Part shown: in pieces, positions 7,109 to 62,811 of the stretch | How positions within the stretch are numbered: the first letter of the stretch is position 1 | How the letters are laid out: the number at the start of each line of letters is the position of its first letter | Origin: Streptomyces cyaneus | Lineage (GTDB): Bacteria; Actinomycetota; Actinomycetes; Streptomycetales; Streptomycetaceae | Reading direction: 5' to 3' | Length of the DNA stretch: 64,000 bases | Assembly (NCBI RefSeq): GCF_004028635.1 | Contig: NZ_RQJW01000006.1 | Span: forward strand, 186,001-250,000 | The notes under the pieces: generated by a model | Databases searched by the model: none | What the model saw: the letters and a program-made list of their open reading frames with translations, nothing else | What the model was told of the DNA's origin: nothing | Position numbers and translations under genes: made by a program

Positions 7109-7114
7109 GCAGGC

Positions 7115-44624: not shown

Positions 44625-44682
44625 CACACCGCGTTCAACGCGCTGCGTTCACACGCTTTAGGCTTGACTCCGGAGCCTGCAG

Positions 44683-44714
44683 GGGCATTCACCCGCATTC
44701 GTGGGGGAATGCCC
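44683..44714 (+). other. Stem-loop in the fusA-tuf gap
   Basis: GGGCATTC / GAATGCCC (8 bp) extended by CCC/GGG inside, without a T-run. A TTGACT at 44664 may belong to a tuf-specific promoter whose -10 would fall in this stem. Role uncertain. Confidence 0.45.
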
Positions 44715-44792
44715 TCGGGCCCGGGCTTTCCAGCAAAGATCACCTGGCGCCGATGAAGCAAGGCGTTCAGAACCACTCCACAGGAGGACCCC

Positions 44793-45986
<1,194 letters not shown>

Positions 45987-47039: not shown

Positions 47040-48512
47040 ATGCGGCAGTCCACCAGCGCGGTGTCAGGGCAGGCGATTCCCCTCACACCGCACCGGTCCA
47101 GCACGCCCAGACGCCCTGCGGAGAGGTGGTACGCACCGGTCGCGGTCGGTGCCGACTCCTTGGGGATGGCCCTGCCGACTGCGGTGACGTTCTTCGCGAT
47201 CGGTGCGGCCCGGCCCGTGCACCAGGCGGTGGTGATCACGGTCATCTGGGTGCTTGTGGGCCTCGCCGCCACGCGCTACGCACCCTGGACATGGGACGAA
47301 GGCGCCCCGGTCGGGCCGGTTGTGCGGGACTGGCTGGTGCTGCTCGGCACCTTGGCCGTGCTGCGGACCGTGTTCGGGCTCGGCGAGCCACCCGCGGCGG
47401 TTCTCGCCGCGCTGTGTCCGGCGTTGGCGGTCACCGTGGTCTGCCGCAAGGCGATCCACCGCCGCATCCTGGCCGTACGCCGGCGCGCCCGAGGGCTTCG
47501 ACGTGTCCTCGTCGTCGGTGAGGCCGGGGCGGTGGACGCCGTGGTCGGACAGCTCGCCGAGCGTACGGACCACGGGTATGTGGTGGTCGGGGCCTGTGTG
47601 CTGGGCGAGGGAGAGCTGTTGTCCGGCGTGCCCGTGTCAGACCGGCTGCAGGTCGGCGAGCGGGCCGCTCCGGACGAGGATGCCGCGCCGGTGGCGGAAG
47701 CGGCTGAGGCGCTCGGCGCCGACCTGGTCTTCGTCAGCACGGGCAGGCACATGTGCGGGGACCGGCTTCGGCGGTTGTCCTGGGCCCTGCACGACCGGGG
47801 CCGCCGGCTGATGGTGCTGCCCGGCATCGTCGAAGTGGCCCGGCGCAGGGTCCGTATCGCCTCGGCGGCCGGGCTCACCCTGCTGGACGTCTCACCGCCG
47901 ACACGCCGTGGCCTGCCGACGCTGCTGAAGGCCGCCACGGACCGGGCCGGCTCGCTCGTCCTGCTCATGGTGCTGGCTCCACTGTTCGCCCTGCTGGCGC
48001 TCGCCGTGCGCTTGAGTTCGCCCGGGCCGGTCATCTACCGCCAGGTCCGCGTCGGCCGGGACGGGACACCTTTCCCCATGTGGAAGTTCCGGACCATGGT
48101 CGTGGACGCGGACCGGATGAAGGGTGACCTCGCGGCGGCGAACGAACACGACGGCCATATGTTCAAGCTGCGGCGGGATCCGCGGGTCACGTCCGCCGGG
48201 CGCTTTCTGCGCCGCTACTCGCTGGACGAGCTGCCCCAGTTGGCCAATGTCCTCCTCGGCCATATGTCGCTGGTGGGGCCCCGCCCGCCGCTGCCCGAGG
48301 AAGTCGCCCGCTACGACCAGGTGGAGATGCGCCGACTGAGTGTCAAACCCGGCCTCACGGGACTGTGGCAGGTGAGCGGCAGATCCGATCTGTCCTGGCA
48401 CGAGACCGTCTCGCTCGATCTGCGGTACGTCGACAACTGGTCGTGGACCTGGGACATGACGGTCATGGCCCGCACGGTCCGCGCTGTGCTGGACGGACGC
48501 GGGGCCTACTGA
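47040..48512 (+). CDS. Polyprenyl glycosylphosphotransferase initiating exopolysaccharide synthesis
   Basis: 490-aa membrane enzyme of the WbaP/WcaJ/CpsE type, which moves a hexose-1-phosphate onto undecaprenyl phosphate as the first step of repeat-unit assembly. N-terminal TM segments (residues 30-135), a Rossmann-like middle (RRVLVVGEAGAVDAVVGQL), a TM near 305-330, then the catalytic domain: VIYRQVRVGRDGTPFPMWKFRTM, SLDELPQLANVLLGHMSLVG, GPRPPLPEE and VKPGLTGLWQVSGRSDLSW. The sugar cannot be read from the sequence. ATG at 47040. It heads the locus. Confidence 0.93.
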   Translation: MRQSTSAVSGQAIPLTPHRSSTPRRPAERWYAPVAVGADSLGMALPTAVTFFAIGAARPVHQAVVITVIWVLVGLAATRYAPWTWDEGAPVGPVVRDWLVLLGTLAVLRTVFGLGEPPAAVLAALCPALAVTVVCRKAIHRRILAVRRRARGLRRVLVVGEAGAVDAVVGQLAERTDHGYVVVGACVLGEGELLSGVPVSDRLQVGERAAPDEDAAPVAEAAEALGADLVFVSTGRHMCGDRLRRLSWALHDRGRRLMVLPGIVEVARRRVRIASAAGLTLLDVSPPTRRGLPTLLKAATDRAGSLVLLMVLAPLFALLALAVRLSSPGPVIYRQVRVGRDGTPFPMWKFRTMVVDADRMKGDLAAANEHDGHMFKLRRDPRVTSAGRFLRRYSLDELPQLANVLLGHMSLVGPRPPLPEEVARYDQVEMRRLSVKPGLTGLWQVSGRSDLSWHETVSLDLRYVDNWSWTWDMTVMARTVRAVLDGRGAY

Positions 48513-48517
48513 ACCAG

Positions 48518-50224
48518 TCAGGAGAGCCGGCACACCGAATCGAGGTTCAGGGAGCGCACATACTGCTCGTCGACCTCGGTGCCGCGGTAGCGAAGCGAGC
48601 GCGTTTCCTCAGGGGTGATCGGTGTGCACTGTGAACCGAGCTTCGAATGGAGGTCGTTTCGCAGGTACATCCACATTCCGCGGACGACGACTGGCGTGTA
48701 GTCGTCCCGGAAATAGGCGATGTCGTACAGCTTCGAGGCCTCCGACCACATGCCGTGTGTCTCCACCAACTCGGGTTTGGTGGCTTTCAGGTACGAGGGC
48801 ATCGCTGCGTATCCGTCGCGAGCGAGTGCAGCATTGGCCAGCAGGGCGAGGTCGAGAATCCTCAACTTCGTACAGCACAGACTCGAGCCGCCGACGTCCG
48901 GGGTCAACACGGTCAGTTCCGGCTGCCCCAGCTTCATCCGCACCTCATCCATCGCCTCGCCGGTCATTCGATACGCAGCCGGAGTGACGGCAACCGCGGC
49001 CTCGGGGTGGAGCCGTGCGGCGATGAACTGCTTCTCGATGCCGCAGGCCGTGAGCAGAAGCATCGCGGCGATCACGGCGAAGAGGCGGGGCGTGGATTTC
49101 AGAAACCGCAAGGCATGAGGCTTTGACAGCGCGACCGCCACCACGCCCAGCGCGATCGCGGACTGCTCCATCCGTCCGATGTAGCCCCAGTTCCGGCCGA
49201 TCCCCACGTTGAATGCCGCGATCGCCACGATGTACCCGAGGCTGAAGCTCGCGACGGGATGGACGCTGCGTGAGCGAATTCGCCTCAACGCCTCGGTTCC
49301 CACCGGCCGCAACCCGCTGCGCATGCCTGCCAACACGGTGATGGCGATGACCGCTGCCGGCAGCAGGACGTAGAGGACCTCCACCGCGGCCACGCACACC
49401 TGCAGGATGTGCTTGAACGCCGAGTTCGCGCTGTACGGGCCGGACTGCTTCGCGATCATCGTGTTCGGCAGCAGCGAGCCGAAAATCGCCAGGCGAAGTG
49501 CTGTGAGTACCGCGAAGGAGAGAACGGACCCCGCGGCCAGGACCCACGCCCAGCGGTACTCCCTCGAACAGAGCGCCAGCACCACAGCGCCGGCGATGAC
49601 GTAGCCTACGGCTTCCGCCCGGATCCACGGGGCTGTGGCAGCCAGCAGCATCAGCCCGATCCATGCATGGCGGTGGCCGCTCCGAAACAGCCACACGATC
49701 GCGAGCGCCACCGCGGACAGTGACGTCATCTCCATTCCATTGATGGTTTCGTTGAGGAACGGCCCATATCCGAAGAGCACCAGGCTGACCATCCAGGCCT
49801 GGACGCGACCGTACGGTCGCAGCATGGTGTGGACGAGTACGGCACCGATGGCTGCGAAGAGCCCGGACCACAGCTGGCCGGCCAGGATCATGCCGCCGAA
49901 GTCCAATGGCAGTACCCGGTAGGTGCCCGCCATCAGCAAGAACCACAGGGGACTCGAAAATCCCTCGACCGTTTCTGATGGCGGTGTCAGCGCGATCTGG
50001 CCGGACTCGGCAAAGGTGCGCGCAAAAGCCAGAGTGATGGATCCGTCGTCCCAGCCGTTCGCCCCGATGAACAGAGCGAGCGCTGAGTGCAGGAGAAGGA
50101 CCGCGCCGAACAGTCCGTAGGAAAGGGACTGGTGTCTCTTTTCGTCGGCCGGCCGGCGCGCTGGTGCGGGGTCTTCCGTCGTGCGGATGATGCCGAGATC
50201 GCCTGCCGTCTGCCCAGCGTGCAT
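48518..50224 (-). CDS. GT-C type membrane glycosyltransferase, AftB-like
   Basis: 568-aa protein with about ten TM segments and a C-terminal soluble domain. Near the first external loop it has WDDGSITLAFARTFAESGQ (Asp pair 59-60) followed by VEGFSSPLW (87-95). These are hallmarks of polyprenyl-phosphate-sugar-dependent GT-C enzymes such as mycobacterial arabinofuranosyltransferase AftB. It would add a sugar outside the membrane. ATG at 50224. It is on the opposite strand, 5 nt from the end of the initiating transferase and divergent from the CDP-alcohol enzyme. Donor and acceptor unknown. Confidence 0.7.
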   Translation of the reverse strand: MHAGQTAGDLGIIRTTEDPAPARRPADEKRHQSLSYGLFGAVLLLHSALALFIGANGWDDGSITLAFARTFAESGQIALTPPSETVEGFSSPLWFLLMAGTYRVLPLDFGGMILAGQLWSGLFAAIGAVLVHTMLRPYGRVQAWMVSLVLFGYGPFLNETINGMEMTSLSAVALAIVWLFRSGHRHAWIGLMLLAATAPWIRAEAVGYVIAGAVVLALCSREYRWAWVLAAGSVLSFAVLTALRLAIFGSLLPNTMIAKQSGPYSANSAFKHILQVCVAAVEVLYVLLPAAVIAITVLAGMRSGLRPVGTEALRRIRSRSVHPVASFSLGYIVAIAAFNVGIGRNWGYIGRMEQSAIALGVVAVALSKPHALRFLKSTPRLFAVIAAMLLLTACGIEKQFIAARLHPEAAVAVTPAAYRMTGEAMDEVRMKLGQPELTVLTPDVGGSSLCCTKLRILDLALLANAALARDGYAAMPSYLKATKPELVETHGMWSEASKLYDIAYFRDDYTPVVVRGMWMYLRNDLHSKLGSQCTPITPEETRSLRYRGTEVDEQYVRSLNLDSVCRLS

Positions 50225-50445
50225 GCCGTCTGCCCTTGCGTCGGAATCCTGCTCTTTTCGCTACAGGAATTCATTTCGGCTCAGCGTTGGCATGGTCCAT
50301 CAATGGTGCGGGCCACGGTCGCGGGCACGCTCAGGGGCGAGGCCGATCGGGTGGATCTCACGATAAGTCCGCTTGTCTCATCGGGTGCGGTAGGCCCGAG
50401 CGTTTACGTTCGTGATCTGACGATCACGGGCATGAGGTTGAGAGA

Positions 50446-51150
50446 GTGGACTTCCCCAGCACACTGAAGCAGCTCTCGAAGGCGCAGAAGCCCGCCCGTG
50501 GGGTTCCCGGCTACTCACGATTCGTCAATCGGCCGGCCGGAAGGCTGCTCGCGGCCGCGGCTCACCGTATGGGGGCTTCACCCAACCATGTGACTGCCGC
50601 AAGCGGCCTGGTCACCTTTCCGGCCATTGTCGCGGTAGCCCTTTGTCCTCCCTCGCACGCGCTCGGACGATGGGTCGCGCTCGGCTTGCTCGTCGGTTTC
50701 GCGCTTGATTCCGCGGACGGTCAACTGGCCCGGCTGCACGGGTCGGCCAGTACCGCCGGGGCGTGGATGGATCACGTGGTGGACTGCGCGAAGATCCTGA
50801 GCGTCCATGCGGCGGTGCTGATTTCGTTCTATCGCTTCTTCGACCTGCCGCGTCCCATCCTGCTGCTCACCCCGATCACCTTCCAGATCGCCGCTGTCCT
50901 GCTGTTCTTCGGAGGGATCCTGACGGAACAGCTGAGCCGGCGAAGGACCGACGGGCACGTCGGCCCGATGCGCCCGGCCTCGGCTGTGCGGGGTATGGCG
51001 CTGCTGCCCGTGGACTTCGGCCTGCTGTGCCTGATCTTCCTGTTCCTGGGAAGCCAGAGGCTTTTCTTCGCGCTGTATGTCGCCCTGTTCTTGGCCCACC
51101 TGGTGCTTGTGCCCGCATTCTTCGCCAAGTGGTTCCGGGAACTCTCCTGA
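50446..51150 (+). CDS. CDP-alcohol phosphatidyltransferase family protein
   Basis: 234-aa membrane enzyme with a complete CDP-alcohol phosphotransferase signature D88-x2-D91-G92-x2-A95-R96-x8-G105-x3-D109-x3-D113. The family moves a phospho-group from a CDP-activated alcohol to another alcohol with two metal ions. Most members make phospholipids, but this one sits in an exopolysaccharide locus that also carries a TagD-like cytidylyltransferase (62326), so a sugar-phosphate or polyol-phosphate product is plausible. GTG at 50446. The acetyltransferase gene follows after 35 nt. Confidence 0.85.
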   Translation: MDFPSTLKQLSKAQKPARGVPGYSRFVNRPAGRLLAAAAHRMGASPNHVTAASGLVTFPAIVAVALCPPSHALGRWVALGLLVGFALDSADGQLARLHGSASTAGAWMDHVVDCAKILSVHAAVLISFYRFFDLPRPILLLTPITFQIAAVLLFFGGILTEQLSRRRTDGHVGPMRPASAVRGMALLPVDFGLLCLIFLFLGSQRLFFALYVALFLAHLVLVPAFFAKWFRELS

Positions 51151-51185
51151 CTCGATTCACTCCGCTCACAAAGAAGGGTCGACCC

Positions 51186-51734
51186 ATGGCACACACCGCC
51201 GCGCCGACCGCCGTGGAACGCTCCCTGCGTGGCTTCACCGGAGCCGGTTACGACAAGGGGCGCCCGCTGCTCGTGCAGGCAGCCTGGTTCGCGGTTCTCA
51301 ACCTCGTCTTCGTCAAGTGGTGGTTCCCGGCCCGCTGGCGGCCCGCTCTGCTGCGGGCCTTCGGCGCGCGGATCGGGCAACGGGTGTTGATCCGTCAGCG
51401 TGTGCGCGTGCACTGGCCGTGGCGGCTGGACGTCGGCGACGACGTATGGATCGGCGAGGACGCCTGGCTGCTGAACCTCGAGCGGATCAGCATCGGCAGC
51501 AATGCCTGTGTCTCCCAGGGGGCGTTGCTGTGCACCGGAAGCCATCAGCGCCTCAGCCCTACCTTCGAGTTCGACAACGGGCCCATCCGGCTGGAGCCGG
51601 GAGCGTGGGTAGCGGCGCGGGCCGTCGTGCTGCGCGGGGTCACGGTCGGTCGTGGCGCTGTGGTGGGTGCCGCGGCGATCGCCCACCGCGACATCGCACC
51701 CGCTGAGGTCGTCACGGCGAGGGGCATGGGATGA
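51186..51734 (+). CDS. Left-handed beta-helix acyltransferase (WcaF-like)
   Basis: 182-aa protein with hexapeptide repeats (VLIRQRVRVH, VGDDVWIGEDAWLLNLERISIGSNACVSQGALLCTGSH, VAARAVVLRGVTVGRGAVVGAAAIAHRDI). The layout matches WcaF/colanic acid acetyltransferases, which O-acetylate a sugar using acetyl-CoA. The catalytic His is probably that in TGSHQ. ATG at 51186. The stop overlaps the next start (ATGA). Confidence 0.85.
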   Translation: MAHTAAPTAVERSLRGFTGAGYDKGRPLLVQAAWFAVLNLVFVKWWFPARWRPALLRAFGARIGQRVLIRQRVRVHWPWRLDVGDDVWIGEDAWLLNLERISIGSNACVSQGALLCTGSHQRLSPTFEFDNGPIRLEPGAWVAARAVVLRGVTVGRGAVVGAAAIAHRDIAPAEVVTARGMG

Positions 51735-52843
51735 GGCTCGTTCATGTGGTGACGCTCGTCAGCGAGGACGGGGCGTACGGCGGTCCCACGAGCGTGGCGA
51801 CGGGGCAGCTCGAGGAGTGCGCCGCGCGCGGCCATGAGGTCACGCTGCTGTCCTTGTGGCGAGGCAGATCCCGGGCACCGGCGCGCATCGGCTCGGTTCC
51901 GCTGCGAACGCGCCCGGCGCGTTCCCTGCTTCCGGGCCGCTTCACCGGGATCATGCACCCGCTCCTCGTCGGGGACATGTGGCGTGCCATGGGCAGGGCC
52001 GATGTGGTGCACATCCACGCGGGGCGCGACCTCGTCTCCCTCACCGCGCTGGCCGTAGCGACGTTGCGGGGAAAGAGGTTCTTCACGCAGACGCATGGAA
52101 TGGTGGAGCCACGCCACAGGCTTGTCGCCAAGCTCTTCGACCGCCTGTATGTACCTCTGCTGCGCCGGGCGCGCGGTTGTCTGGTGCTCACGGAGCGGGA
52201 GCGGCGGGCCGTGTCCGAGGTCATCGGACCGGAGGGGCCGCCGCTGCTGACGCTGCCCAATGGCGTGCGGCCGGAGCGCAACGCGGCGGTGCGGCGTCGG
52301 CTGCAGGCGCCGGAGGTGCTCTTCATGGCGCGGCTGCATCCGCGCAAGCGCCCGGAGGCGTTCGTCGAGATGGCCGCCCTGGTGCACCGGAAGCTGCCCG
52401 ATGTGCGGTTCACCCTGCACGGGCCGGAGGAGGGCTCGCTGGCGACGGTGCGTCAGCTCATCGCCACCCATCGGCTGGGGGATGTCGTCTCCTACGGCGG
52501 GGCGCTGTCGTACGCCGAGGCCCTGCGTGCCTATGCGAAGGCGGCGGTGTACGTGCTGCCGAGCGTGGACGAGCCGTTCCCCATGACCGTGATCGAAGCC
52601 CTGTCCGCAGGAACCCCTGTGGTGTGCACGGAGACCTGCGGCATGGCGGACGAACTCGGGCGTCGCGGAGCGGCGATCGTCACGGACGGAAGCCCGCAGG
52701 CCATGGCCGACGCGGTCGGTGAGCTGCTCGCCGACGAGAACAGGCGACGTGGGCTGGTGGAAGCGGGCAGGCGCGCAGTGGAAGAAGCCTTCTCCATCCA
52801 CGCGGTGACCGACCGACTGGAAGAGCTCTACCGAAATCTCTGA
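51731..52843 (+). CDS. Family 4 glycosyltransferase
   Basis: 370-aa GT-B fold enzyme of family GT4. The N-terminal half has LVSEDGAYGGPTSVATGQLEECAARGHEVTLL; the C-terminal half has LFMARLHPRKRPEAFVEMAALV and the nucleotide-sugar EX7E region PSVDEPFPMTVIEALSAGTP. Cytoplasmic, adding a sugar to the lipid-linked intermediate. ATG at 51731 overlaps the acetyltransferase stop. The next gene is 170 nt away, so this ends the first sub-operon. Confidence 0.9.
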   Translation: MRLVHVVTLVSEDGAYGGPTSVATGQLEECAARGHEVTLLSLWRGRSRAPARIGSVPLRTRPARSLLPGRFTGIMHPLLVGDMWRAMGRADVVHIHAGRDLVSLTALAVATLRGKRFFTQTHGMVEPRHRLVAKLFDRLYVPLLRRARGCLVLTERERRAVSEVIGPEGPPLLTLPNGVRPERNAAVRRRLQAPEVLFMARLHPRKRPEAFVEMAALVHRKLPDVRFTLHGPEEGSLATVRQLIATHRLGDVVSYGGALSYAEALRAYAKAAVYVLPSVDEPFPMTVIEALSAGTPVVCTETCGMADELGRRGAAIVTDGSPQAMADAVGELLADENRRRGLVEAGRRAVEEAFSIHAVTDRLEELYRNL

Positions 52844-53013
52844 AGGCTCATCGATGTGACGCCCGAGGTCTGTTGATGACAGGCCCAGACGGAGGCATCG
52901 GATGACTCGGGGCGCGGAAGGGCGTGGCAGATCGTCCTAATTCCGATAATTAGTGCATAACCTACCAGGCGGGTCTCAGTGATCACCGATTCCGGGTTTC
53001 TGGAGGAGCTGCC
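52844..53013. other. AT-richer gap, probable internal promoter
   Basis: 170 bp. It contains CTAATTCCGATAATTAGTGC (52937-52956), unusually AT-rich here, and probably a promoter for the second half of the locus. Confidence 0.45.
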
Positions 53014-53994
53014 ATGACCAAGCAGGTGGACGTCGTCGTTGCCGGAGGCGGGGGATTCATCGGCGGGCATCTGGCTGCCGACCTCCTGGCGCAGGGGCTG
53101 TCGGTCCGCTGCGTCGACATCAAGCCGCAGCACGAGTGGCACCAACTGCACCGCGACGCCGAGAACGTCGTCGCCGATCTGTCGCTCCTCGAGCACGCCC
53201 GCGACGCCGTCCGGGGCGCCGGTCAGGTGTACATGCTGGCCGCCGACATGGGCGGCATGGGCTTCATCGAGAACCACAAGGCCGCCTGCATGATGTCGGT
53301 GCTGATCAGCACGCACATGCTCAAGGCCGCGCACGAGGCCGATGTGGAGCGCTACTTCTACTCCTCGTCCGCCTGCGTGTACGCCGCCGACAAGCAGACC
53401 GCCTCGAACGTCACCGCGCTGAAGGAGGAGGACGCGTATCCGGCGCAGCCCGAAGACGGCTACGGCTGGGAGAAGCTCTTCTCCGAGCGCATGTGCCGCC
53501 ACTTCGAGGAGGACTACGGGTTCACCTGTCGTGTCGCGCGCTACCACAACGTGTACGGCCCCGCGGGCACTTGGACCGGCGGCCGCGAGAAGGCCCCGGC
53601 GGCCGTGTGTCGCAAGATCGCCGAGGCGGCCGTATCAGGGTCGCACCGGATCGACATCTGGGGCGACGGCCGGCAGACCCGTTCCTTCATGTACATCGAC
53701 GACTGTCTGCACGGCACGCAGATGCTCATGCACGGGAGCAGCAGCGTTCCCGTCAACATCGGCTCTTCCGAGCTGGTCTCCATCAACCAACTGGTCGACA
53801 TCGTCGAGGAGATCGCGGGCATCCGCTGCGAGCGCAAGTACCAGCTGGACGCGCCGCAGGGCGTACGCGGCCGCAACTCCGACAACACCCTGATCCGCGA
53901 ACTCCACGGCTGGGAGCCCTCGATCCCCCTCGCCGAGGGCCTCGAGAAGACGTATGCCTGGGTCTACGACCAGGTCAAGCTCGCCCGCTCGTGA
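53014..53994 (+). CDS. NAD-dependent epimerase, GDP-mannose 3,5-epimerase-like
   Basis: 326-aa extended SDR with NAD motif GGGGFIGGHL (11-20). It matches plant GDP-mannose 3,5-epimerase along its length: AADMGGMGFIENHKA, SSACVY with C121, Y150-G-W-E-K154, RVARYHNVYGP, and TWTGGREKAPAAVCRK with K193. Against the Arabidopsis enzyme (C145, Y174, K178, K217, recalled from the published structure) the offset is a constant 24. The likely product is GDP-L-galactose and/or GDP-L-gulose. ATG at 53014 with GGAGGAG upstream. Opens the second part of the locus. Confidence 0.85.
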   Translation: MTKQVDVVVAGGGGFIGGHLAADLLAQGLSVRCVDIKPQHEWHQLHRDAENVVADLSLLEHARDAVRGAGQVYMLAADMGGMGFIENHKAACMMSVLISTHMLKAAHEADVERYFYSSSACVYAADKQTASNVTALKEEDAYPAQPEDGYGWEKLFSERMCRHFEEDYGFTCRVARYHNVYGPAGTWTGGREKAPAAVCRKIAEAAVSGSHRIDIWGDGRQTRSFMYIDDCLHGTQMLMHGSSSVPVNIGSSELVSINQLVDIVEEIAGIRCERKYQLDAPQGVRGRNSDNTLIRELHGWEPSIPLAEGLEKTYAWVYDQVKLARS

Positions 53995-54010
53995 TCGCTC
54001 GTGATCGCTC
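53991..54010 (+). repeat. 10-bp tandem duplication at the epimerase stop
   Basis: GTGATCGCTC occurs twice in tandem, covering the epimerase stop codon. Confidence 0.7.
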
Positions 54011-54035
54011 GGATCGGCAGGGAGAGCAGCAGCCG

Positions 54036-55238
54036 ATGAGGATCCTCGTCCACGACTACAGCGGGCACCCGTTCCAGGCGCAGCTCAGCCGTGAGCTGGC
54101 GCGCCGCGGTCATGACGTCGTTCACTCGACCTGCCCGGCCTACGTCTCCGGGAAGGGCAACCTCGCCGAGAACGCGGTCGCCGGCCTGCGTTTCGTCACC
54201 ATCGGCGACGGCATCGTGCTGGACAAGGGCGCCTACGTCCGGCGCCTGTTCCAGGAGACCCGCCTCGGCCTGGAACTGGCCCGACAGGTACGGCGCGAGA
54301 AGCCGGACGTGGCGATGCTGGGGAATCTGCCGATCCCGACCCTGGTGGTGGCCGCGGCGGCGCTGAAGATGCTGCGCATCCCCTGGGTGCTGTGGCACCA
54401 GGACATCACCGCCATCGCCCTTCGCAGCTTCGCCGCCGCCGGGGTGTCGAGGCTGATGGGCATCGCCGCCGGTGTCTTCGAGCGGGGCGAGAAGTGGTCG
54501 GCGCGACGCGCCTCGGCGATTGTGGTGATCGCCGACTCCTTCGTGCGGGTCCACCGGGAGTGGGGCACCGCCGACAAGGTCACCGTCATCCCCAACTGGG
54601 CGCCGCTGGACGAGATCCTCCCCGTGGCCCGCGCCAACGCGTGGTCGCAGGAGCACGGCCTCACCGGCGTCAGGACCGTGCTGTACTCGGGCACGATCGG
54701 CCTCAAGCACAACCCCGCCCTGCTGGTGCGGCTGGCCGAGACGCTGCGCGAGCTGGGCGAACGGGTCCGCCTCGTCGTCGTCAACGACGGCCCGGCCGTC
54801 CCGGTCATCAAGGAGGCCGCGGCCGCCCGAGGCGTCGATCTGACCCTGCTGCCCTTCCAGCCGTACGACCGCCTTCCCGAGGTGCTGGGCACGGGCGATG
54901 TGCTGGTCGTGCTGCTGGCGGCGGATGCCGGGGAGTTCTCGGTCCCCTCCAAGACGCTGTCCTATCTGTGCGCCGGACGCCCGGTGCTGGGCCTGATGCC
55001 GGCCGACAATCTGGCGGCGCAGCTGCTGCGGAAGGCCGGCTCGGTGGTGTTCGCCCCGGAGGAGTCCTCGCTGGCCGGTGCGGCCACATGGGTCCGCAAG
55101 GTCCTGAACGACCCGGTGCGCGCGGAGGCGCTGGGCAAGGAGAGCCGGGCGCTGGCCGAGCGGGAGTTCGCCCTGGAGGGCTGCGCCTCGCAATTCGAGG
55201 ACATTCTGCGGACCGTGAGGCGCTCCGACACCGGCTGA
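54036..55238 (+). CDS. Family 4-type glycosyltransferase
   Basis: 400-aa GT-B enzyme. MRILVHDYSGHPFQAQLSRELARRGHDVV starts the N-terminal acceptor domain. KVTVIPNWAPLDEI and TVLYSGTIGLKHNPALLVRLAE begin the donor domain. The usual second EX7E Glu region reads FSVPSKTLSYLCAGRPVLGL, as in WbuB/WcaI-like enzymes. ATG at 54036 with AGGGAGAG upstream; upstream in-frame codons run through the epimerase gene in another frame and are not part of the protein. Confidence 0.88.
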   Translation: MRILVHDYSGHPFQAQLSRELARRGHDVVHSTCPAYVSGKGNLAENAVAGLRFVTIGDGIVLDKGAYVRRLFQETRLGLELARQVRREKPDVAMLGNLPIPTLVVAAAALKMLRIPWVLWHQDITAIALRSFAAAGVSRLMGIAAGVFERGEKWSARRASAIVVIADSFVRVHREWGTADKVTVIPNWAPLDEILPVARANAWSQEHGLTGVRTVLYSGTIGLKHNPALLVRLAETLRELGERVRLVVVNDGPAVPVIKEAAAARGVDLTLLPFQPYDRLPEVLGTGDVLVVLLAADAGEFSVPSKTLSYLCAGRPVLGLMPADNLAAQLLRKAGSVVFAPEESSLAGAATWVRKVLNDPVRAEALGKESRALAEREFALEGCASQFEDILRTVRRSDTG

Positions 55239-55296
55239 ACCTTTTCGCTGAACGTTCATGGCAAGCCTTCTCACAGACCAGCGTCGGGAGCTGTCG

Positions 55297-56028
55297 ATGC
55301 GCGAAATTTCCTACGAAGAACAAACGGTCAGGTCGGGCAATCCGCTGGCGCGTTTCGCTCATCGCACTCGCATGACGATGGCGATCGACCTTGTCACCGG
55401 AGTGTGCGCGAAGCACGGCACCGTCGTCGATTTCGGCGCAGGACCGGGACTTTTCCTGCACGCGCTTGGCGAGGCGCGCCCCGACGTCACGCTCGTCGGA
55501 TACGACGCGTACATGGAGCCGGCGTATCCCGAAGTGAAGTACGCGGAATCGATGGAAAGCATCGCTGAGCAAAGCGTGGATGTGCTGACCGCGTTCGAGG
55601 TCTGCGAGCATCTTTACGCCAACGAGCTCGACACGCTGCTCGAAGACACGTTGCGCATTCTCAAGCCGAACGGCGCGCTCGTGATTTCCGTGCCGATCAT
55701 GTGTGGCCTGGCCATCGTGCCGAAGGTGTCGAACTGGATGATTCGCAGCCGCTCACTCAAGTCGGAGTACACACCCGCGGAAGTGCTGAAAGCAATGGTC
55801 GGAATGCATGTGAGCCGGCCGCAGAACCCGCGCACGACACACAAGGGTTTTGATTTCCGTGAACTGCGGGAGGTCGTGCGGGAGCGGTTCTCCATCGATG
55901 CCGTGCATATGAGCCCGGTGCCGAACCTGCCCTGGTGGTTGAGCTCGCAGTACTTCATGATTTGTCGGCCGAAGCGGCATCCCTCAAGCAAAACGCTCCT
56001 GGATTCACCCGATATGTATCGAATGTGA
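55297..56028 (+). CDS. Class I SAM-dependent methyltransferase
   Basis: 243-aa methyltransferase. Motif I is GTVVDFGAGPGLFLHALGE and the motif-II region is VDVLTAFEVCEHLY (the EHL typical of UbiE/Methyltransf_11 types), then LRILKPNGALVISVP. It would O- or N-methylate a sugar. The ATG at 55297 has GGGAG 7 nt upstream and is preferred over the ATG at 55258, which has none. Codon use differs from neighbours: many GAA, AAA, ATT, CTT and CAA codons in this stretch, suggesting more recent transfer. Confidence 0.85.
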   Translation: MREISYEEQTVRSGNPLARFAHRTRMTMAIDLVTGVCAKHGTVVDFGAGPGLFLHALGEARPDVTLVGYDAYMEPAYPEVKYAESMESIAEQSVDVLTAFEVCEHLYANELDTLLEDTLRILKPNGALVISVPIMCGLAIVPKVSNWMIRSRSLKSEYTPAEVLKAMVGMHVSRPQNPRTTHKGFDFRELREVVRERFSIDAVHMSPVPNLPWWLSSQYFMICRPKRHPSSKTLLDSPDMYRM

Positions 56029-56060
56029 GATACCACTGGGTCGATGTGAGAGGGGTGCAG

Positions 56061-57536
56061 GTGCAGGGCAGTCAAGAACGTTGCATGGCCGCGGTATGCG
56101 CCTGGGCCGCTGTATTCGTCGGCTTGCTGCCGGGGCTGGTCCTGCAGACGCGCGACGCGCACGTCGGCGCCGCACTCGTCGTGCAGTGTGTCGTCGTGGC
56201 GCACACCGGTGGCGCCCTCACATGGGTGCTCACCGCTACGTCGGTACGGCTGGTCGCGTTCGGTTTCTGGCTCTTCTCCTATGTATGGCTCGGGTTGGCG
56301 CCGCTCGCCATGCTCGCCACCGACACCTACCCCCTCGGATACCGGACCGACGAGGCCAACGCCTTCTTCGTCACCGTCCTGATCGAGGTCGGGCTCCTCG
56401 CCTACAGCGTCGGAGCGCTGCTGGCCGCCAGGCGTGCCGGGCATCGCTCGGTCCTTCTCGGACCGGTGCTCGCCCGCAGGCTCACCCCGTTGCCCGTGCT
56501 CGCCCTGAGCGTTCTGTCGCTCGTTCTCGCGGTCGTACTCGTCCCCGAGCTGGGAGGGTGGGGCGCCTTCTTCACCAGCAGGCAGGCGCTGTGGCAGTCG
56601 AAGGCCGCGACGGACTCGGAGCGGACGCTGCGCACCTGGATCCTCGCCGTCCCCGCCTTCTGGGCGTTGGTGGGCCTGATTCACCTGCCCCGCCGGACGA
56701 AGGGCGACCGGTGGTTGCGCGGCGCCCGCCTGCTGCTGCTCCCGCTGCTGCTCGGCCTCAACGTGGTCGTCAACAACCCGATCAGCAGGCCGCGCTTCTG
56801 GGCCGGCACCGTCCTGCTGGTCCTGCTGTTCTCATGGAGCCGGCTCAACCGCCCACGGGCCTTTCGCCTCATCGCCGCGGCGATCACGGCGGTGGTGCTC
56901 CTCGTCTTCCCGTACAGCGACTACTTCCGCTACAGCGAACGTGAAGCCGTCCAAGTGGTGAGCCTGACGGAGCAGCTCACCTCCAACATGGACTACGACT
57001 CCTTCCAGCAGATGCAGACGGGCGTCGACCATGTGAAGGAGAATGGCTTCTCGCCGTCGGACGCGCTCGGCCCTGTGGTGTTCATGGTGCCGCGCTCCGT
57101 GTGGCCGGAAAAGCCGCAGGCCATCGGCATCACGCTCGCCCAGCATGCGGGCTACGACTTCTGGAATCTCTCGGCACCGCTGTGGATCGAGAGCTACATG
57201 TGGGCCGGTTTTCCTTCTGTGATCGCCGTCTTCTGCCTGCTGGGTGCGGCCGGACGCCGTATGGACGACATCCGGGAACGGCTCCGGGACAGCCGCACCA
57301 CGCTGGCGTTTCTCCTGGTCCCGGCCTTCGCCTTCTACCAGATGATCTTCCTGCGCGGCAGCCTCCTGGCCATCGTGGGGCCGATGCTGCTGCTCCTGGT
57401 CGTCCCGCTGTTCATCACCCGCCGCGCCGCCCGGCCATCCCGGTTCCCTTCACCGGCGCTGCCACCCGCGCCCGCCAGCCACGCATCCATCCCCGGAACA
57501 GGAGGCATCCGTGACCAGCTCCACCAGCTTCGATGA
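56061..57536 (+). CDS. Oligosaccharide repeat-unit polymerase (Wzy-like)
   Basis: 491-aa membrane protein with about 12 hydrophobic segments and the O-antigen-polymerase plan: a long loop between TM segments (TEQLTSNMDYDSFQQMQTGVDHVKENGF, FMVPRSVWPEKPQAIGITLAQ, ESYMWAGFPS). In the polymerase family the large external loop carries the active site. GTG at 56061 is chosen because AGAGGGG lies 6 nt upstream; GTG 56046 and ATG 56085 are alternatives. Its end overlaps the chain-length gene by 26 nt. Confidence 0.82.
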   Translation: MQGSQERCMAAVCAWAAVFVGLLPGLVLQTRDAHVGAALVVQCVVVAHTGGALTWVLTATSVRLVAFGFWLFSYVWLGLAPLAMLATDTYPLGYRTDEANAFFVTVLIEVGLLAYSVGALLAARRAGHRSVLLGPVLARRLTPLPVLALSVLSLVLAVVLVPELGGWGAFFTSRQALWQSKAATDSERTLRTWILAVPAFWALVGLIHLPRRTKGDRWLRGARLLLLPLLLGLNVVVNNPISRPRFWAGTVLLVLLFSWSRLNRPRAFRLIAAAITAVVLLVFPYSDYFRYSEREAVQVVSLTEQLTSNMDYDSFQQMQTGVDHVKENGFSPSDALGPVVFMVPRSVWPEKPQAIGITLAQHAGYDFWNLSAPLWIESYMWAGFPSVIAVFCLLGAAGRRMDDIRERLRDSRTTLAFLLVPAFAFYQMIFLRGSLLAIVGPMLLLLVVPLFITRRAARPSRFPSPALPPAPASHASIPGTGGIRDQLHQLR

Positions 57537-59169
57537 CCGGTACGGCGAACCGGACCAGCTCCGCGACCAGCTGCGCCAGCTGCTGAAGTACCGCGTGACC
57601 ATCGCGCTGGGTATCGTCCTCGGGCTGCTCGGGGGACTGCTGCTGGTACTGCTCCGCGCAGGCAGCTACACCTCCACCGGTGAGGTTCTCGTCCGTTCGA
57701 CGGTGGACCCGTTCAGCACCTTCGGCGTGTCCGTCGACAACCAGGTGAGCATGGGCACCGAGCAGCAGATCGCGCTCAGCGCCTCCGTCGCGGCCCGTGC
57801 GGCGAAGGCGTTGCGCGAACCGTCCCGTGCCGAGGCGCTGCTGAAGGAGCTGCGGGTCAGCAATGCGCCGCACACCCAGATTCTCCGGTTCGAGTACACC
57901 GCCGGCACGGCGAAGCGGGCGGCCCGGGTCAACAACGCGTTCATCGACGCCTATCTCGCCGACCGCAAGGAGCGGACCGACGCCACGGTACGGCGGATGG
58001 CGAACGCGCTGAAGCGGCAGGTCGCGCCGCTGATCAGAAAGAGCAACGCCGAAGTCGGCAAGCCCGGGAGCGCGGCTCTGCGGGACCAGATCAACGTGCT
58101 GCAGAAGCGGATCTCCGACTTCGAGTCCCGCGACACCAGCGGAGGCGACGTCGTACGCAAGCCCAAGCCGCCGAAGCACCCCGCGGGGCCGGGGCCGGTG
58201 GCGCTCATCGGTCTTGGCCTGATGGGCGGACTCGTGCTGGCCATCGTGCTCGCCTGGCTGCGGTCCGCCTTCGAACCACGGGTCCGCTCGGTCGCCGAGG
58301 TCCAAGGCGCGCTAGGGGCCCCGGTGCTGGCCATCCTCCCGGGTGCCGGGACGGACAGCGAGCTGCTGGAGGTCGGGCGGGTCGCCAGCAGCCGCGCGGA
58401 GGTGTACCGCACGCTCGCCTTCCACCTGCGCAGCGGCGACGCCCGTACGGCCGGCGGCACGCTGCTGGTCGTGGCCCCGAAGCAGGACCGCGAGGCCGAG
58501 GCGGCCGCCATCAACCTCGCCGCCGTGTTCGCCGAGTCCGGTGAGGACGTACTGCTGGTGGACGCCACCGCGAGCACACCGGGCCTCGCGGCAAGGCTGC
58601 CGCTGCTGACCGAGGATTCGGGCGACGAGACCGAAGGGCCGCGGCCTCTGGACGGCCGGGTCGTCGTCGACGCGGGCACGGCGGGGCGCATCATGCTCTG
58701 CCCGGACAGGCGGGGCGCCTCCACCGGCGACATCCCGATGTCCCCCATGGTGGCGCGTGTGCTGTCGTGCGCCGCCGGAAGGTCCTCGGTGGTCGTCACG
58801 CGGGCTCTGCTCGAACACGCCGACGGTCTCGCGGTCGCCCAACGTGCGGACGGCGTCCTCATCGTGGGCGGCCTGGAGCACACCACACGCGACGACCTCA
58901 GGCAGGTCCGCGAGCTGATCAGTTGCTCGGGTGGGCACATCGTGGGCGCGGTCCTCTGCCCGGGCACCCGGCGGAGCCTGCTCCGAGGTGCCCTGGACAG
59001 TGGCCGCGGGCAGGGGGAGCGGGGCTCGTCCGCGATGCCGGCCGCCCGCGCCGAGGCTCTGTCCGTCGCTGCGCATCAGGTCGACGGCCGCACGCAGGAA
59101 GAGCTGATCTCCCAGCCGCAGCAGAGCTCGTCCGCCCAGGACGACACGCTCACCGCCTCCAAAGGATGA
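57511..59169 (+). CDS. Chain-length determinant (Wzz/YveK) protein with degenerate kinase-like domain
   Basis: 552-aa protein. TM1 at about residues 30-49, an external Wzz domain (TSTGEVLVRSTVDPF to about residue 210), TM2 at about 229-250, then a cytoplasmic BY-kinase-like Rossmann domain. The P-loop position reads VVAPKQDREAEAAAINLAAV (about 319-338) where an active kinase has a GxGKST-type motif. No tyrosine cluster ends the protein; the tail is Gln/Ser-rich. So it probably controls chain length without phosphotransfer. GTG at 57511 lies inside the end of wzy; the stop overlaps the flippase start. Confidence 0.82.
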   Translation: MTSSTSFDDRYGEPDQLRDQLRQLLKYRVTIALGIVLGLLGGLLLVLLRAGSYTSTGEVLVRSTVDPFSTFGVSVDNQVSMGTEQQIALSASVAARAAKALREPSRAEALLKELRVSNAPHTQILRFEYTAGTAKRAARVNNAFIDAYLADRKERTDATVRRMANALKRQVAPLIRKSNAEVGKPGSAALRDQINVLQKRISDFESRDTSGGDVVRKPKPPKHPAGPGPVALIGLGLMGGLVLAIVLAWLRSAFEPRVRSVAEVQGALGAPVLAILPGAGTDSELLEVGRVASSRAEVYRTLAFHLRSGDARTAGGTLLVVAPKQDREAEAAAINLAAVFAESGEDVLLVDATASTPGLAARLPLLTEDSGDETEGPRPLDGRVVVDAGTAGRIMLCPDRRGASTGDIPMSPMVARVLSCAAGRSSVVVTRALLEHADGLAVAQRADGVLIVGGLEHTTRDDLRQVRELISCSGGHIVGAVLCPGTRRSLLRGALDSGRGQGERGSSAMPAARAEALSVAAHQVDGRTQEELISQPQQSSSAQDDTLTASKG

Positions 59170-60710
59170 GCGCCTCCGGAACGGCCCTTCCCACAGCCGA
59201 TGGGAAGGCCGCCCGGAGCGGGGTCGCCGCCACCGCGAGGGGCGGGTGGTGGGGCTTCCTGGGTGCAGCGGTCAGCGCCGTCTTCGGCTACGTCCTCGTC
59301 ACCCTGGTCACTCGTGCCCTCGGGGCGCACGGGTCGGGCGCGGTGTTCACCGGCGTAGCCGTCTTCACCATCCTCAGCAACACCTGCAAGCTCGGTGCCG
59401 ACACCGGGCTGGTGCGCTTCGTCTCCCGTGACGTGGCCACAGGCGGCGGCCGCCAGGTGGGCGCACTTGTGCGCACCGCGGTCGTACCGGGAGCCGCGGT
59501 CAGCACCGGGGCTGCCGCGCTGCTGTTCCTGTCCCCCTCCACGGCCACCTCACTGCTGCCGAACCTGGCACCACAGGACGCAGTCACTCTGGTCCGGCTC
59601 TTCGCCCTGTTTCTCCCGCTGGCCACGGTCACCCTGATCCTGCTCGGCGCGACCCAGGGCTACGGCACCGTGCTTCCGCTGGTCGGGGTCGAGCAGATCG
59701 GCAAACCGGTACTGCGCGTGCTGATCGCCGTGCCGGTCGCGCTGCTGGCCCCCGGTGTGCTGAGCCTGGCCGCCGCCTGGCTCGTTCCCTCCCTGGCCGG
59801 CGTCCTCGTCGCCTGGCACGCGCTGCGCCGGTGCCGCCGTACCGGCGTCAGGCGTCCCCCCGGCCCCGACACGGCCACCACCAGGCACGGATTCTGGGCA
59901 TTCTCCGTACCTCGGGCGATCTCCTCCGTCTTCGACATCAGCGCGGTCTGGGTGGGCGTCGTCCTGCTGTCCTGCCTGGCGACGAGCGAAGAGGCGGGCA
60001 TCTACACCGCCGTCGGCCGGGTAGTCATCGCGGCGACGCTGCTGCAGCTCGCCATCCGGCTGGCCGTCGCTCCGGAGATCAGCCGTCTCCTCGCCGTGGG
60101 CGACATCCCACAGGCCCGCCATCTGTACCGGGTCTCGACGCGCTGGATCGTGCTGTTCTCCTGGCCGCTGCTCGTCCTGCTCACCAGCTTCCCGGGCACC
60201 GTCCTGTCGTTGTTCGGGCCGGAGTTCGAGCAGGGGGCGGCCGCGCTGGTGGTGCTCTGCGTCGCCTCGGCAGTCAACGTGGGGGTGGGAAACGCCCAGA
60301 CGGTGCTCCTCATGGCAGGCAAGAGCTCTTGGCATCTGGCGGTCACCGGCGTCGCGTTCGCGGTGCAGCTGACGGTCGGCTTCCTCGCCGTACCCCGCCT
60401 GGGCGTCCTCGGAGCCGCCCTGTCCTGGGCTGCGGCGACCATCGTCGAGAACCTGGTCTCCGCCGCGTTGGTGCGGCGGCATCCGGGCTTCACGATCATC
60501 GACCACGGATATCTCCTGGCGACCGCCGCCGGCCTGTGTCTCACGGTGCCGCTGGTCCTTCCCGCCCGGCTGCTGGCAGGTGACACGGCCATCGGACTTG
60601 CCGTCGCAATCACCATGGGATTTTGCGTATTCGGTATAAGTTTGTGGCGATTTAGTGCACCCCTGGGAGTGCGTGAACTCGTCGGTGTGCTGCGCGAACG
60701 CACTACTTGA
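59166..60710 (+). CDS. Flippase (Wzx/MVF-MATE type)
   Basis: 514-aa protein with about 14 TM segments. GGWWGFLGAAVSAVFGYVLVTLVTRALGAHGSGAVFTG at the N-terminus and GADTGLVRFVSRDVA are typical polysaccharide flippase segments. It would move the lipid-linked repeat unit outward. ATG at 59166 overlaps the preceding stop (ATGA). The open frame upstream is an out-of-register extension of the chain-length gene and is excluded. Confidence 0.9.
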   Translation: MSASGTALPTADGKAARSGVAATARGGWWGFLGAAVSAVFGYVLVTLVTRALGAHGSGAVFTGVAVFTILSNTCKLGADTGLVRFVSRDVATGGGRQVGALVRTAVVPGAAVSTGAAALLFLSPSTATSLLPNLAPQDAVTLVRLFALFLPLATVTLILLGATQGYGTVLPLVGVEQIGKPVLRVLIAVPVALLAPGVLSLAAAWLVPSLAGVLVAWHALRRCRRTGVRRPPGPDTATTRHGFWAFSVPRAISSVFDISAVWVGVVLLSCLATSEEAGIYTAVGRVVIAATLLQLAIRLAVAPEISRLLAVGDIPQARHLYRVSTRWIVLFSWPLLVLLTSFPGTVLSLFGPEFEQGAAALVVLCVASAVNVGVGNAQTVLLMAGKSSWHLAVTGVAFAVQLTVGFLAVPRLGVLGAALSWAAATIVENLVSAALVRRHPGFTIIDHGYLLATAAGLCLTVPLVLPARLLAGDTAIGLAVAITMGFCVFGISLWRFSAPLGVRELVGVLRERTT

Positions 60711-60784
60711 GGCCGCCTCAGAACCGAGACCGCCACTCCTGCTCCCCTTCTCCCACCCGTACTTGCTGCAACCAGGGATGTTCC

Positions 60785-62326
60785 ATGCGCCTGAGAAAAA
60801 GCACGAAGCGGGGGGCCACAACGGCTTCGCTTGTGGCCCTCCTCGCGGCTGCCTCGCTCATCACCGCTTCGAGCTCGGCAGCCGACGGCGACGAAAAGAC
60901 CCTGACCGCCGACCGTTTGGCGACCTGGCAGACCGACGGCATCGTCTGGTCGATCGAGTACGCAGGCGGTGTCGTGTACGTCGGCGGGACCTTCGACAAG
61001 GTCCGTCCGCCGGGCGCGAAGCCCGGACAGAGGGAGGTCGCACGCAAGAACTTCGCCGCGTTCGACGCCGCCACCGGCAAGCTGCTGCCGTGCGCCCACT
61101 CCTTCTCCGGCGGCGGTGACACCGTACGGGCGCTGAAGGCGTCGTCGGACGGCGAGGTGCTGTACGTCGGTGGCTCGTTCGGCAAGGTCGGCAAGGCCGC
61201 TGCGTCCAGCGCGGTCGCGCTCAACACGGCCGACTGCTCGCTGCGCAAGGACTTCCGCCCGCACATCTCGTCGTTCGTGCGGGCGATCGAGGTGACGGAC
61301 GCCGCGGTCTACCTGGGCGGCGACTTCACGATCGTCAACGGTCAGAAGAGGCAGCGCATCGTGGCGCTCACCCCCAGCGGTTCGCTGCTGCCGTTCAAGG
61401 CGCAGATCGACGCTCCCGTACGGGCCATCCTCGCCGCGCCCGAATTCGGCAAGCTCATCGTCGGCGGCGACTTCCTCGAGGTCAACGACGAGTTCGAGTT
61501 CAAGCTCGTCGCCCTGCGCCCCGCCACGGGCACGACGGTGACCTCGTACCCGAGCTGGCTGCCGGCGAGATCGAAGGTGAAGGCGCTGGTGCGCGACGCG
61601 ACCAACTTCTATGTGGCAGCCGAGGGCAAGGGGACGGGCATCTTCGACGGCCGCATCGCCGGCCGCCTGGGCAACGGCGAGATGATCTGGCGGGACACCT
61701 GCCTGGGCGCCACCCAGGCCCTCGCCGTGCACAACGGTGTGCTCTACAGCGGCTCCCACGCCCACAACTGCAGGGACACACCGGGCGGTTTCCCCGAGTT
61801 CAACAACCGCCAGCACTTCCTGGCCCAGTCGGTCCGTGACCGGCACATCCTGCACTGGTTCCCCGACACGGACGGTGGGACCGGCGAGGGCAACGGCCCC
61901 CGGGCGCTGAAGATGGCCGGTGAAGCCCTCTGGGCGGGCGGCGAGTTCACCGAGGTCAACGGCAGACGGCAGCAGAGTCTGGTCCGCTTCTCGGCCGGGC
62001 GCGACCGCGGAATCCCGGAGGAGCCGCCCCAGCTCGAGGCCTCGACGTCGGCCGCCGGGAAGATCACGCTCAGCTGGCGCGCCGCATGGGACCGGGACGA
62101 CGCGGAGCTGAAGTACCTGGTCTACCGGGACGGCAAGCTCGTGGCCTCACCGACCCAGCGCTCCGCGGAGTGGAACCGCCCCACGATGACGCACACCGAC
62201 TCCGTCACCCCCGGCTCCCGCCATCACTACCGGATCGCCGTCAGCGACGGCGAGAACACCTCGCCCCGGTCGAAAACGCTCGAAGTCACCGCGGCCGCCG
62301 ATGGGCCTCCGAAGGAACAGCGTTGA
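60785..62326 (+). CDS. Secreted beta-propeller protein with C-terminal fibronectin type III domain
   Basis: 513-aa exported protein. Signal peptide MRLRKSTKRGATTASLVALL with cleavage near TASSSAA. The body is repeated Delta-60/propeller-like units: VVYVGGTFDKVR, VLYVGGSFGKVG, AVYLGGDFTIVNGQKR, KLIVGGDFLEVNDE, LWAGGEFTEVNGRRQ. A C-terminal FN3 domain (GKITLSWRAAWDRDDAELKYLVYRDGKLV) follows. Such proteins may bind the polymer. ATG at 60785 with AGGGA upstream. The stop overlaps the cytidylyltransferase ATG. Confidence 0.8.
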   Translation: MRLRKSTKRGATTASLVALLAAASLITASSSAADGDEKTLTADRLATWQTDGIVWSIEYAGGVVYVGGTFDKVRPPGAKPGQREVARKNFAAFDAATGKLLPCAHSFSGGGDTVRALKASSDGEVLYVGGSFGKVGKAAASSAVALNTADCSLRKDFRPHISSFVRAIEVTDAAVYLGGDFTIVNGQKRQRIVALTPSGSLLPFKAQIDAPVRAILAAPEFGKLIVGGDFLEVNDEFEFKLVALRPATGTTVTSYPSWLPARSKVKALVRDATNFYVAAEGKGTGIFDGRIAGRLGNGEMIWRDTCLGATQALAVHNGVLYSGSHAHNCRDTPGGFPEFNNRQHFLAQSVRDRHILHWFPDTDGGTGEGNGPRALKMAGEALWAGGEFTEVNGRRQQSLVRFSAGRDRGIPEEPPQLEASTSAAGKITLSWRAAWDRDDAELKYLVYRDGKLVASPTQRSAEWNRPTMTHTDSVTPGSRHHYRIAVSDGENTSPRSKTLEVTAAADGPPKEQR

Positions 62327-62811
62327 TGGGAGAACGTCTCGGCTACGCGCCAGGGGTCTTCGACCTCTTCCATGTGGGCCATCTGAACATCCTGCGCCGG
62401 GCGCGCGGGCACTGCGACCGGCTCATCGCCGGCGTCTGCTCGGACGACCTCGTGGTGCGCCTCAAAGGCAGGCCGCCCGTGGTCCCGCTCTCCGAGCGAC
62501 TGCAGATCGTTCAGAGCGTGCGCTATGTGGACGAGACGTTCGTCGCGACCGTGGACGACAAGATCGGGATCTGGAAGGAAGTCGGATTCGACGTCATCTT
62601 CAAAGGCGACGACTGGCTGGGCACGGAGGTCTGGACGGCTCTCGAGACCGAATTCGCGCGGGTGGGGGTGAAGGTCGTCTACTTCCCGTACACCGTGCAC
62701 ACCTCGAGCACGCTGCTACGGGACGCACTCCACCTCCTCGCCCAGCGGAGCCCTTCCGAGCCTGCCGCGGGACAGCTCGCGGGACCGGGTCCGAGAGCAA
62801 CGGAGGGCTGA
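62326..62811 (+). CDS. TagD/GCT-like cytidylyltransferase
   Basis: 161-aa nucleotidyltransferase. PGVFDLFHVGHLNILRRAR holds the HxGH motif (H16-V-G-H19); RYVDE and FKGDDW follow, and the C-terminus has VHTSSTLLRDAL, the TagD-type RTxGISST region. This subfamily makes CDP-glycerol or related CDP-alcohols from CTP, though FAD synthetase-like and heptose-1-P enzymes share the fold. The ATG at 62326 shares its A with the preceding stop. It complements the CDP-alcohol transferase at 50446. Confidence 0.82.
   Translation: MGERLGYAPGVFDLFHVGHLNILRRARGHCDRLIAGVCSDDLVVRLKGRPPVVPLSERLQIVQSVRYVDETFVATVDDKIGIWKEVGFDVIFKGDDWLGTEVWTALETEFARVGVKVVYFPYTVHTSSTLLRDALHLLAQRSPSEPAAGQLAGPGPRATEG

Follow-up and report, generated by a model that had tools for sequence, protein, structure and literature searches.

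The window analysed here, a stretch of 64,000 nucleotides from Streptomyces cyaneus (contig 5, 186001–250000, of a genome of 9.83 Mb that is 99.98% complete), contains at 47040–62811 a compact gene set that we consider likely to direct the synthesis of an extracellular polysaccharide (EPS) of the Wzx/Wzy type and to represent the L-galactose allele of a locus whose sister allele, built around gmd, fcl and a WcaI-type glycosyltransferase (GT), would specify L-fucose. Sequence comparisons place it as one allele of a widespread, syntenic EPS family of the Streptomycetaceae. This reading is built on the gene content of the loci, the mutual exclusion of two sugar modules in the loci examined, one exchange of these modules in place, and their repeated change along a tree of the shared proteins, all of which are observed directly. 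Wzx/Wzy loci for EPS are already known, and the present one is new as a locus of this type with an exchangeable L-fucose/L-galactose module.

The exclusion was scored in 51 curated loci by tblastn (1e-60), limited to the stretches fetched around each locus. In 36 of them the gene for a GDP-mannose 3,5-epimerase (GME; 53014–53994 in the window, on the plus strand like all genes cited below unless noted), which is the first half of the module, stands with that of a family 4 glycosyltransferase, GT4b (54036–55238), its second half, and none of gmd, fcl and wcaI is found; the other 15 carry gmd, fcl and wcaI, with GME (0 of 15 at 1e-60) and GT4b absent, and in none of the 51 stretches do both modules occur together. 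The genes for an acetyltransferase, a second GT (GT4a), a CDP-alcohol phosphotransferase, a TagD-like nucleotidyltransferase and a beta-propeller protein accompany either module, and the acetyltransferase, the phospho-alcohol pair and the propeller protein form the core of the family. GME-type loci are over-represented in this set because many of its members were found through GME or GT4b; in a sample blind to the module, a Wzx search that matched 24 of 295 Streptomyces genomes, 15 were GME-type, eight fucose-type and one unrelated (G121, 36% identity). Ten proteins from four fucose-type loci were scanned, and gmd exceeded its cut-off of 415 bits in all four (496–510 bits), while the GT of L172 fell into the WcaI family at 272.6 bits (cut-off 276). 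At the scale of whole genomes (E ≤ 1e-80), gmd was found in all three fucose-type genomes searched, at the coordinates of the locus, and was absent from 10 of the 11 GME-type genomes searched, the source genome included; the gmd and fcl pair of a colanic-acid-type locus is thus lacking here, with gmd missing from the source genome at that threshold and fcl from the locus, the place where it was sought.

The exchange itself can be seen by aligning L176 (fucose-type) with L178 (GME-type), both of which adjoin tuf: identity reaches 91% across a 10-kb stretch and 85–97% in four shorter pieces, and the alignment breaks exactly where wcaI and gmd face GT4b and GME, the facing stretches measuring 2.4 and 2.6 kb. 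A tree of eight core proteins from the 51 loci, with 200 bootstrap trees and rooted on L181 and L182, calls for at least three module changes, and none of the bootstrap trees (0%) can be reconciled with a single one; the approximately unbiased (AU) test rejected a topology that unites all GME-type loci in one clade (p 1.6e-9). Since the deep branches are fucose-type on this rooting, the shortest history is one in which GME was gained twice and the fucose module was regained once, in L176, with only moderate support (85/84) for the branch that parts L188 from its GME-type sisters. At least three times, one of the two modules has taken the place of the other.

We define the family by the presence in one locus of the acetyltransferase, GT4a, Wzy, Wzz, Wzx, the propeller protein, the TagD-like enzyme and the CDP-alcohol phosphotransferase, all of which the window locus holds. 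The gene set listed in the preliminary description of this DNA does not stand alone: co-occurrence searches found the same core in many Streptomycetaceae, and searches for loci through the propeller protein, the TagD-like enzyme and Wzx ruled out its uniqueness. A GME search (E ≤ 1e-60) matched 17 of 246 Streptomyces genomes, the source genome among them, and of the 16 other neighbourhoods 12 (L021–L032) have the same core, one of them (L025) without an initiating transferase; the four others, in which GME is 42–67% identical, are without the core, and one of these (L033) has an initiating transferase. Profiles of the propeller protein (E ≤ 1e-40) and of the TagD-like enzyme (E ≤ 1e-30) matched 46 of 150 and 53 of 200 Streptomycetaceae genomes, respectively, in each case in five of 17 genera. 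Twenty of these loci were compared: ten (L171–L178, L181, L182) have the core including a Wzx match, and the other ten are a more distant form in which Wzx was not matched and, in some, neither was the acetyltransferase. GME and GT4b were found in two of the 20 (L177, L178) and gmd, fcl and a WcaI-type GT in 17, and in L180, which is truncated at its end, the WcaI-type GT alone was seen. The curated set was started from L021–L032, L037–L068, L171–L178, L181, L182 and the window locus; three loci with fewer than six of the eight core genes were excluded (L045, with none; L046, on a short contig; L047, from S. mexicanus), ten duplicates with identical Wzy and propeller proteins were removed to leave 42, and L188–L196 were added unfiltered to give 51. 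L197, the G121 locus in which nothing besides Wzx matched, was excluded, and the ten more distant loci in which Wzx was not matched (L167–L170, L179, L180, L183–L186) were left out of the tree.

The epimerase matches the plant GME structures in a profile search of the PDB (2c59, 5.7e-89), some 200 bits ahead of any other family, and its Cys121, Tyr150, Lys154 and Lys193, which line up with the Cys, YxxxK and Lys of the GME family, are retained in 76 of 78 homologues, the remaining two being partial matches; catalytic roles of these residues are given in the accessible part of PMC6678494. The full-length match to a known GME and the conserved Cys, Tyr and two Lys assign the protein, on sequence grounds, to the GME family, as had been proposed. 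GT4b is closest to the WcaI family (NF007640, 1.1e-26; 93.7 bits, below the cut-off of 276) and is presumed to be an L-galactosyltransferase. In a scan of named genomes, of which the best 80 of 152 relatives were kept, 32 relatives came from Streptomyces (S. regalis, S. lanatus, S. griseoruber and S. flaveolus among them) and the other 48 from further actinobacteria such as Nocardioides and Aeromicrobium; GME was present in 68 of these 80 loci, adjoining GT4b in 67. The GME/GT4b pair, set among other genes in three loci, looks like a portable cassette: in L045 (Streptomyces sp. A3M-1-3, 5263–11239) it is 86 and 82% identical, with no EPS core gene matched within 21 kb around it and a carbamoyltransferase gene about 2 kb away, and it recurs in the Nocardioides loci L075 and L077, in the latter beside a different starter enzyme and a Wzz. 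Quick trees were also built for GME (76 rows) and GT4b (87 rows). In each of them a single branch separates the GME-type group near the window from the rest (support 94 and 91); the other group is likewise set apart in the GME tree (90) but needs two changes in the GT4b tree, and as long branches are joined in the GME tree, we draw nothing further from either.

From this gene set we infer the enzymatic products, the order of the sugars and the role of the propeller protein. A polyprenyl-phosphate hexose-1-phosphate transferase resembling WcaJ/WbaP (the initiating transferase; 47040–48512; PF02397, 2.3e-66; TIGR03025, 368 bits in NCBIfam, above the cut-off of 295.55) would put a hexose onto the lipid carrier; GME would make GDP-L-galactose, from which GT4b would add L-galactose; GT4a (51731–52843; PF00534, 2.5e-28) would attach a further sugar; and a WcaF-like hexapeptide O-acetyltransferase (51186–51734; NF007797, 4.1e-55; 186.3 bits against a WcaF cut-off of 192) would O-acetylate. 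The flippase Wzx (59166–60710; PF01943, 1.7e-13; 12 hydrophobic segments) would flip the unit, the Wzy-like protein (56085–57536) would polymerise it, and the Wzz-like protein (57511–59169), with a kinase-like domain and two hydrophobic segments, would set the chain length. The TagD-like enzyme (62326–62811; PF01467, 9.2e-19), a presumed cytidylyltransferase, would form a CDP-alcohol, the membrane CDP-alcohol phosphotransferase (50446–51150; PF01066, CDP-OH_P_transf, 2.5e-8) would transfer the phospho-alcohol, and the propeller protein would bind or hold the polymer outside the cell. The profiles support these putative functions strongly in the case of the initiating transferase, GT4a, the acetyltransferase and GME and well in that of Wzx and the TagD-like enzyme; support is moderate for GT4b, the CDP-alcohol phosphotransferase and the methyltransferase described below, and weak for the Wzz-like protein. 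The Pfam matches of Wzx, the propeller protein and the TagD-like enzyme were obtained on a longer open frame than the listed gene.

These results agree with much of the preliminary description, whose gene list is matched by the open frames, with codon bias and profile searches pointing to the same location, and whose acetylase, methyltransferase, CDP-alcohol phosphotransferase and TagD-like enzyme are all recovered. Its full Wzy pathway stands, by profiles, for the initiating transferase, the two GT4 enzymes and Wzx, and less so for the Wzy-like protein, which has no match in Pfam or NCBIfam and is weakly assigned from its place in the locus and some 11 hydrophobic segments (its AlphaFold model was discarded at a predicted local distance difference test score, pLDDT, of 43), and for the Wzz-like protein, which is without a Pfam match and has weak NCBIfam matches to chain-length and tyrosine-kinase families (best 2.4e-9). 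In L029 (4606–7650) the Wzy-like and Wzz-like genes read as a single frame of 1015 amino acids, for which a natural fusion or a sequence error is possible. Across the curated loci the acetyltransferase was found in all 51, GT4a in 50, and the initiating transferase in 33 of the 36 GME-type and all 15 fucose-type loci. A second EPS-like locus of the same genome (L199; contig 9, 162000–181900) has its own initiating transferase, 47% identical over residues 124–490, with genes for a Wzz, a UDP-glucose/GDP-mannose dehydrogenase, an asparagine synthase and a heparinase-like protein.

Two further genes are accessory. The methyltransferase, dependent on S-adenosylmethionine (SAM; 55258–56028; PF13489, 1.8e-12), and a membrane protein encoded on the minus strand (48518–50224; about seven hydrophobic segments) are each present in four of the 36 GME-type and none of the 15 fucose-type loci and, among L021–L032, only in L021 and L023. 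The membrane protein had been called an extracellular-type GT-C, a label that finds no support in Pfam, NCBIfam or the PDB, where nothing matched. An O-methylated polymer with a 'GT-C' sugar was ruled out as the defining product by these counts, according to which O-methylation and an extra sugar would be marks of a sub-lineage and not of the polymer class.

The propeller protein (60785–62326), whose gene was missing from the earlier list, is conserved in all 51 curated loci. It reaches the DUF5122 family at 27.1 bits (5.2e-6), with the cut-off at 27, and its AlphaFold model (pLDDT 81) shows a beta-propeller followed by a C-terminal beta domain; an N-terminal hydrophobic segment is the sign that it is apparently secreted. 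Its C-terminal domain had three weak matches when the PDB was searched by profile, and the three relatives scanned (in L167, L170 and L182) end in laminin-G or CBM96 domains, which suggests that the protein may bind glycan. The best 50 matches of a fold search with the model were all propellers of no relation to it, Fbw7 and BamB among them.

L-Fucose is 6-deoxy-L-galactose, and because the GME module is swapped for a GDP-L-fucose module, each of them including a GT that is closest to WcaI, the comparison favours L-galactose over L-gulose as the sugar, narrowing an earlier prediction that had named either; an L-galactose-type sugar, O-acetyl and phospho-alcohol all fit the gene evidence. We regard it as improbable that the module provides L-gulose, as in bleomycin: GME enzymes also form GDP-L-gulose (accessible part of PMC6678494), and the GME/GT4b pair and carbamoyltransferase gene of L045 recall the L-gulose/carbamoyl-mannose pair of bleomycin, as far as the available source describes it, but the swap with a GDP-L-fucose module while the rest of the locus is conserved, the common configuration of L-fucose and L-galactose, and the proximity of GT4b to the WcaI family argue against it. 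We likewise doubt that the product is a sugar moiety belonging to a wall-bound glycan or small glycoconjugate and not a free EPS, for although the propeller protein may anchor it to the wall and nothing in the locus indicates release, the Wzx, Wzy-like and Wzz-like genes, each present in all 51 curated loci, suit a repeating polymer. Somewhat unlikely is the possibility that the nucleotidyltransferase and the CDP-alcohol phosphotransferase build a lipid or carrier, and that the polymer is free of phospho-alcohol. Among solved structures, the phosphotransferase is related to choline/ethanolamine phosphotransferases, phosphatidylinositol synthases and similar enzymes, which act on lipids, and in NCBIfam it weakly matches archaetidylinositol- and phosphatidylinositol-phosphate synthases; on the other side, the phosphotransferase accompanies EPS genes in 51 and the TagD-like enzyme in 50 of the 51 loci, the two being convergent neighbours in many, a co-occurrence that cannot alone separate a lipid anchor from a substituent. 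The residues D..DG..AR..G...D...D, which we take to be the active-site motif of CDP-alcohol phosphotransferases, are invariant in 13 aligned sequences, and the nearest solved structures to the TagD-like enzyme are ethanolamine-phosphate and glycerol-3-phosphate cytidylyltransferases. The phosphoenolpyruvate (PEP) mutase profile (PF13714) matched two genes elsewhere in the genome, but it is uninformative on phosphonates, as it also matched in nine of 14 control genomes.

Against a Wzx/Wzy-type EPS containing L-galactose and a phospho-alcohol there is more to be set. The TagD-like enzyme lies far below the TagD equivalog (TIGR01518, 61.3 bits; cut-off 165.4), and the NCBIfam profile that it matches best is that of a heptose-1-phosphate adenylyltransferase domain (73.3 bits; cut-off 181.5), so that neither alcohol nor nucleotide is fixed by the sequence; the assignments of Wzy, Wzz and the acceptor of the phosphotransferase lean on weak similarity or context. 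On the fucose side, the fcl matches (440–472 bits) fall below the curated cut-off of 500, a gmd-like gene (394 bits, below its cut-off) lies elsewhere in the GME-type genome G164, and the alignment of L176 with L178 has a second break, at fcl and the initiating transferase, which are present in L176 and absent from L178. GT4b occurs without GME in 12 of the best 80 of its 152 relatives, so its donor is perhaps not GDP-L-galactose alone, and L047 has the initiating transferase, acetyltransferase, GT4a, GME, GT4b and Wzy, with no match to Wzz, Wzx, the propeller protein, the TagD-like enzyme or the CDP-alcohol phosphotransferase in 21 kb. Three of the 36 GME-type loci are without an initiating transferase; the genome of L178, G352, has no homologue anywhere at E ≤ 1e-40, and its propeller gene (3832–5366) is broken into two frames, from which it follows that some copies are perhaps decaying or served by another starter, L178 possibly among the former. 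As the 51 loci were mostly selected for at least six of the eight core genes, their core-gene counts are partly circular.

Among known systems, colanic acid (wca) of Escherichia coli is similar in its WcaJ/WbaP-scoring starter, WcaI-family GT, WcaF-family acetyltransferase and Wzx/Wzy route, and the fucose allele shares gmd and fcl with it (available part of PMC9143390); the window locus differs in having fewer GTs, GME instead of gmd and fcl, and the propeller protein, and the list of 20 colanic acid genes in that part of PMC9143390 has no GME, TagD-like or CDP-alcohol gene. Streptomyces exopolysaccharides are little known, according to the available part of PMC4347597. The ebosin (ste) cluster of Streptomyces sp. 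139 likewise has a starter enzyme and chain-length/export genes, and also a fucosyltransferase (accessible parts of PMC4347597 and PMC11078827); compared by description only, it differs in its 27 open reading frames, for which these parts mention no GME or propeller protein, the word epimerase being absent from that of PMC11078827, and reference titles name a glucose-1-phosphate cytidylyltransferase and give ste10 as an asparagine synthase, the kind of gene also seen in L199. The wps-1 and imp loci of Actinoplanes missouriensis are further actinobacterial EPS clusters, wps-1 belonging to the Wzx/Wzy type and having a methyltransferase among its tailoring enzymes; wps-1 differs in its sulfotransferases, and the main text of PMC13390465 mentions no epimerase, cytidylyltransferase or CDP-alcohol enzyme. 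The GME of Methylacidiphilum fumariolicum belongs to the same family, with its catalytic Cys and Lys and YxxxK, and differs in context: exopolysaccharide goes unmentioned in the available part of PMC6678494, and the window GME is half of an exchangeable EPS module. The claim that no described Streptomyces polysaccharide has this combination holds to the extent that searches of open-licence PubMed Central (PMC) full text turned up no account of the locus or of any Streptomyces polymer with L-galactose; the gene set itself is one allele of a widespread family.

We offer tentatively, as somewhat less than an even chance, a serotype-like switch between L-fucose and L-galactose, made in place through the 2.4–2.6 kb module and perhaps under selection by phages or predators, with the L-galactose allele specifying a chemically undescribed actinobacterial polymer. 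Strains that share the polymer machinery and differ mainly in one sugar module are a natural experiment on that sugar, and make it possible to test what one hydroxyl, the difference between L-galactose and L-fucose, does to phage adsorption, hyphal adhesion or matrix properties; the locus is also a source of bacterial GME enzymes and of a candidate L-galactosyltransferase.

The locus is placed between tuf and the S10 operon, since fusA and tuf lie upstream at 42498–45986 (Pfam scan) and the S10 and L2 genes were found past the end of the window, in the neighbouring stretch L200. Between tuf and the locus, at 46089–46730 on the minus strand, is a gene for a small protein without a Pfam match, which was matched in 12 of the 36 GME-type and two of the 15 fucose-type stretches, with EF-Tu in 12 and one of these. 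Downstream, a glucose/sorbosone dehydrogenase gene (PF07995) runs from 62983 to the window end at 64000 and on into L200, and was matched in only seven of the 36 GME-type loci; it is followed in L200, before S10, by a radical SAM/SPASM gene.

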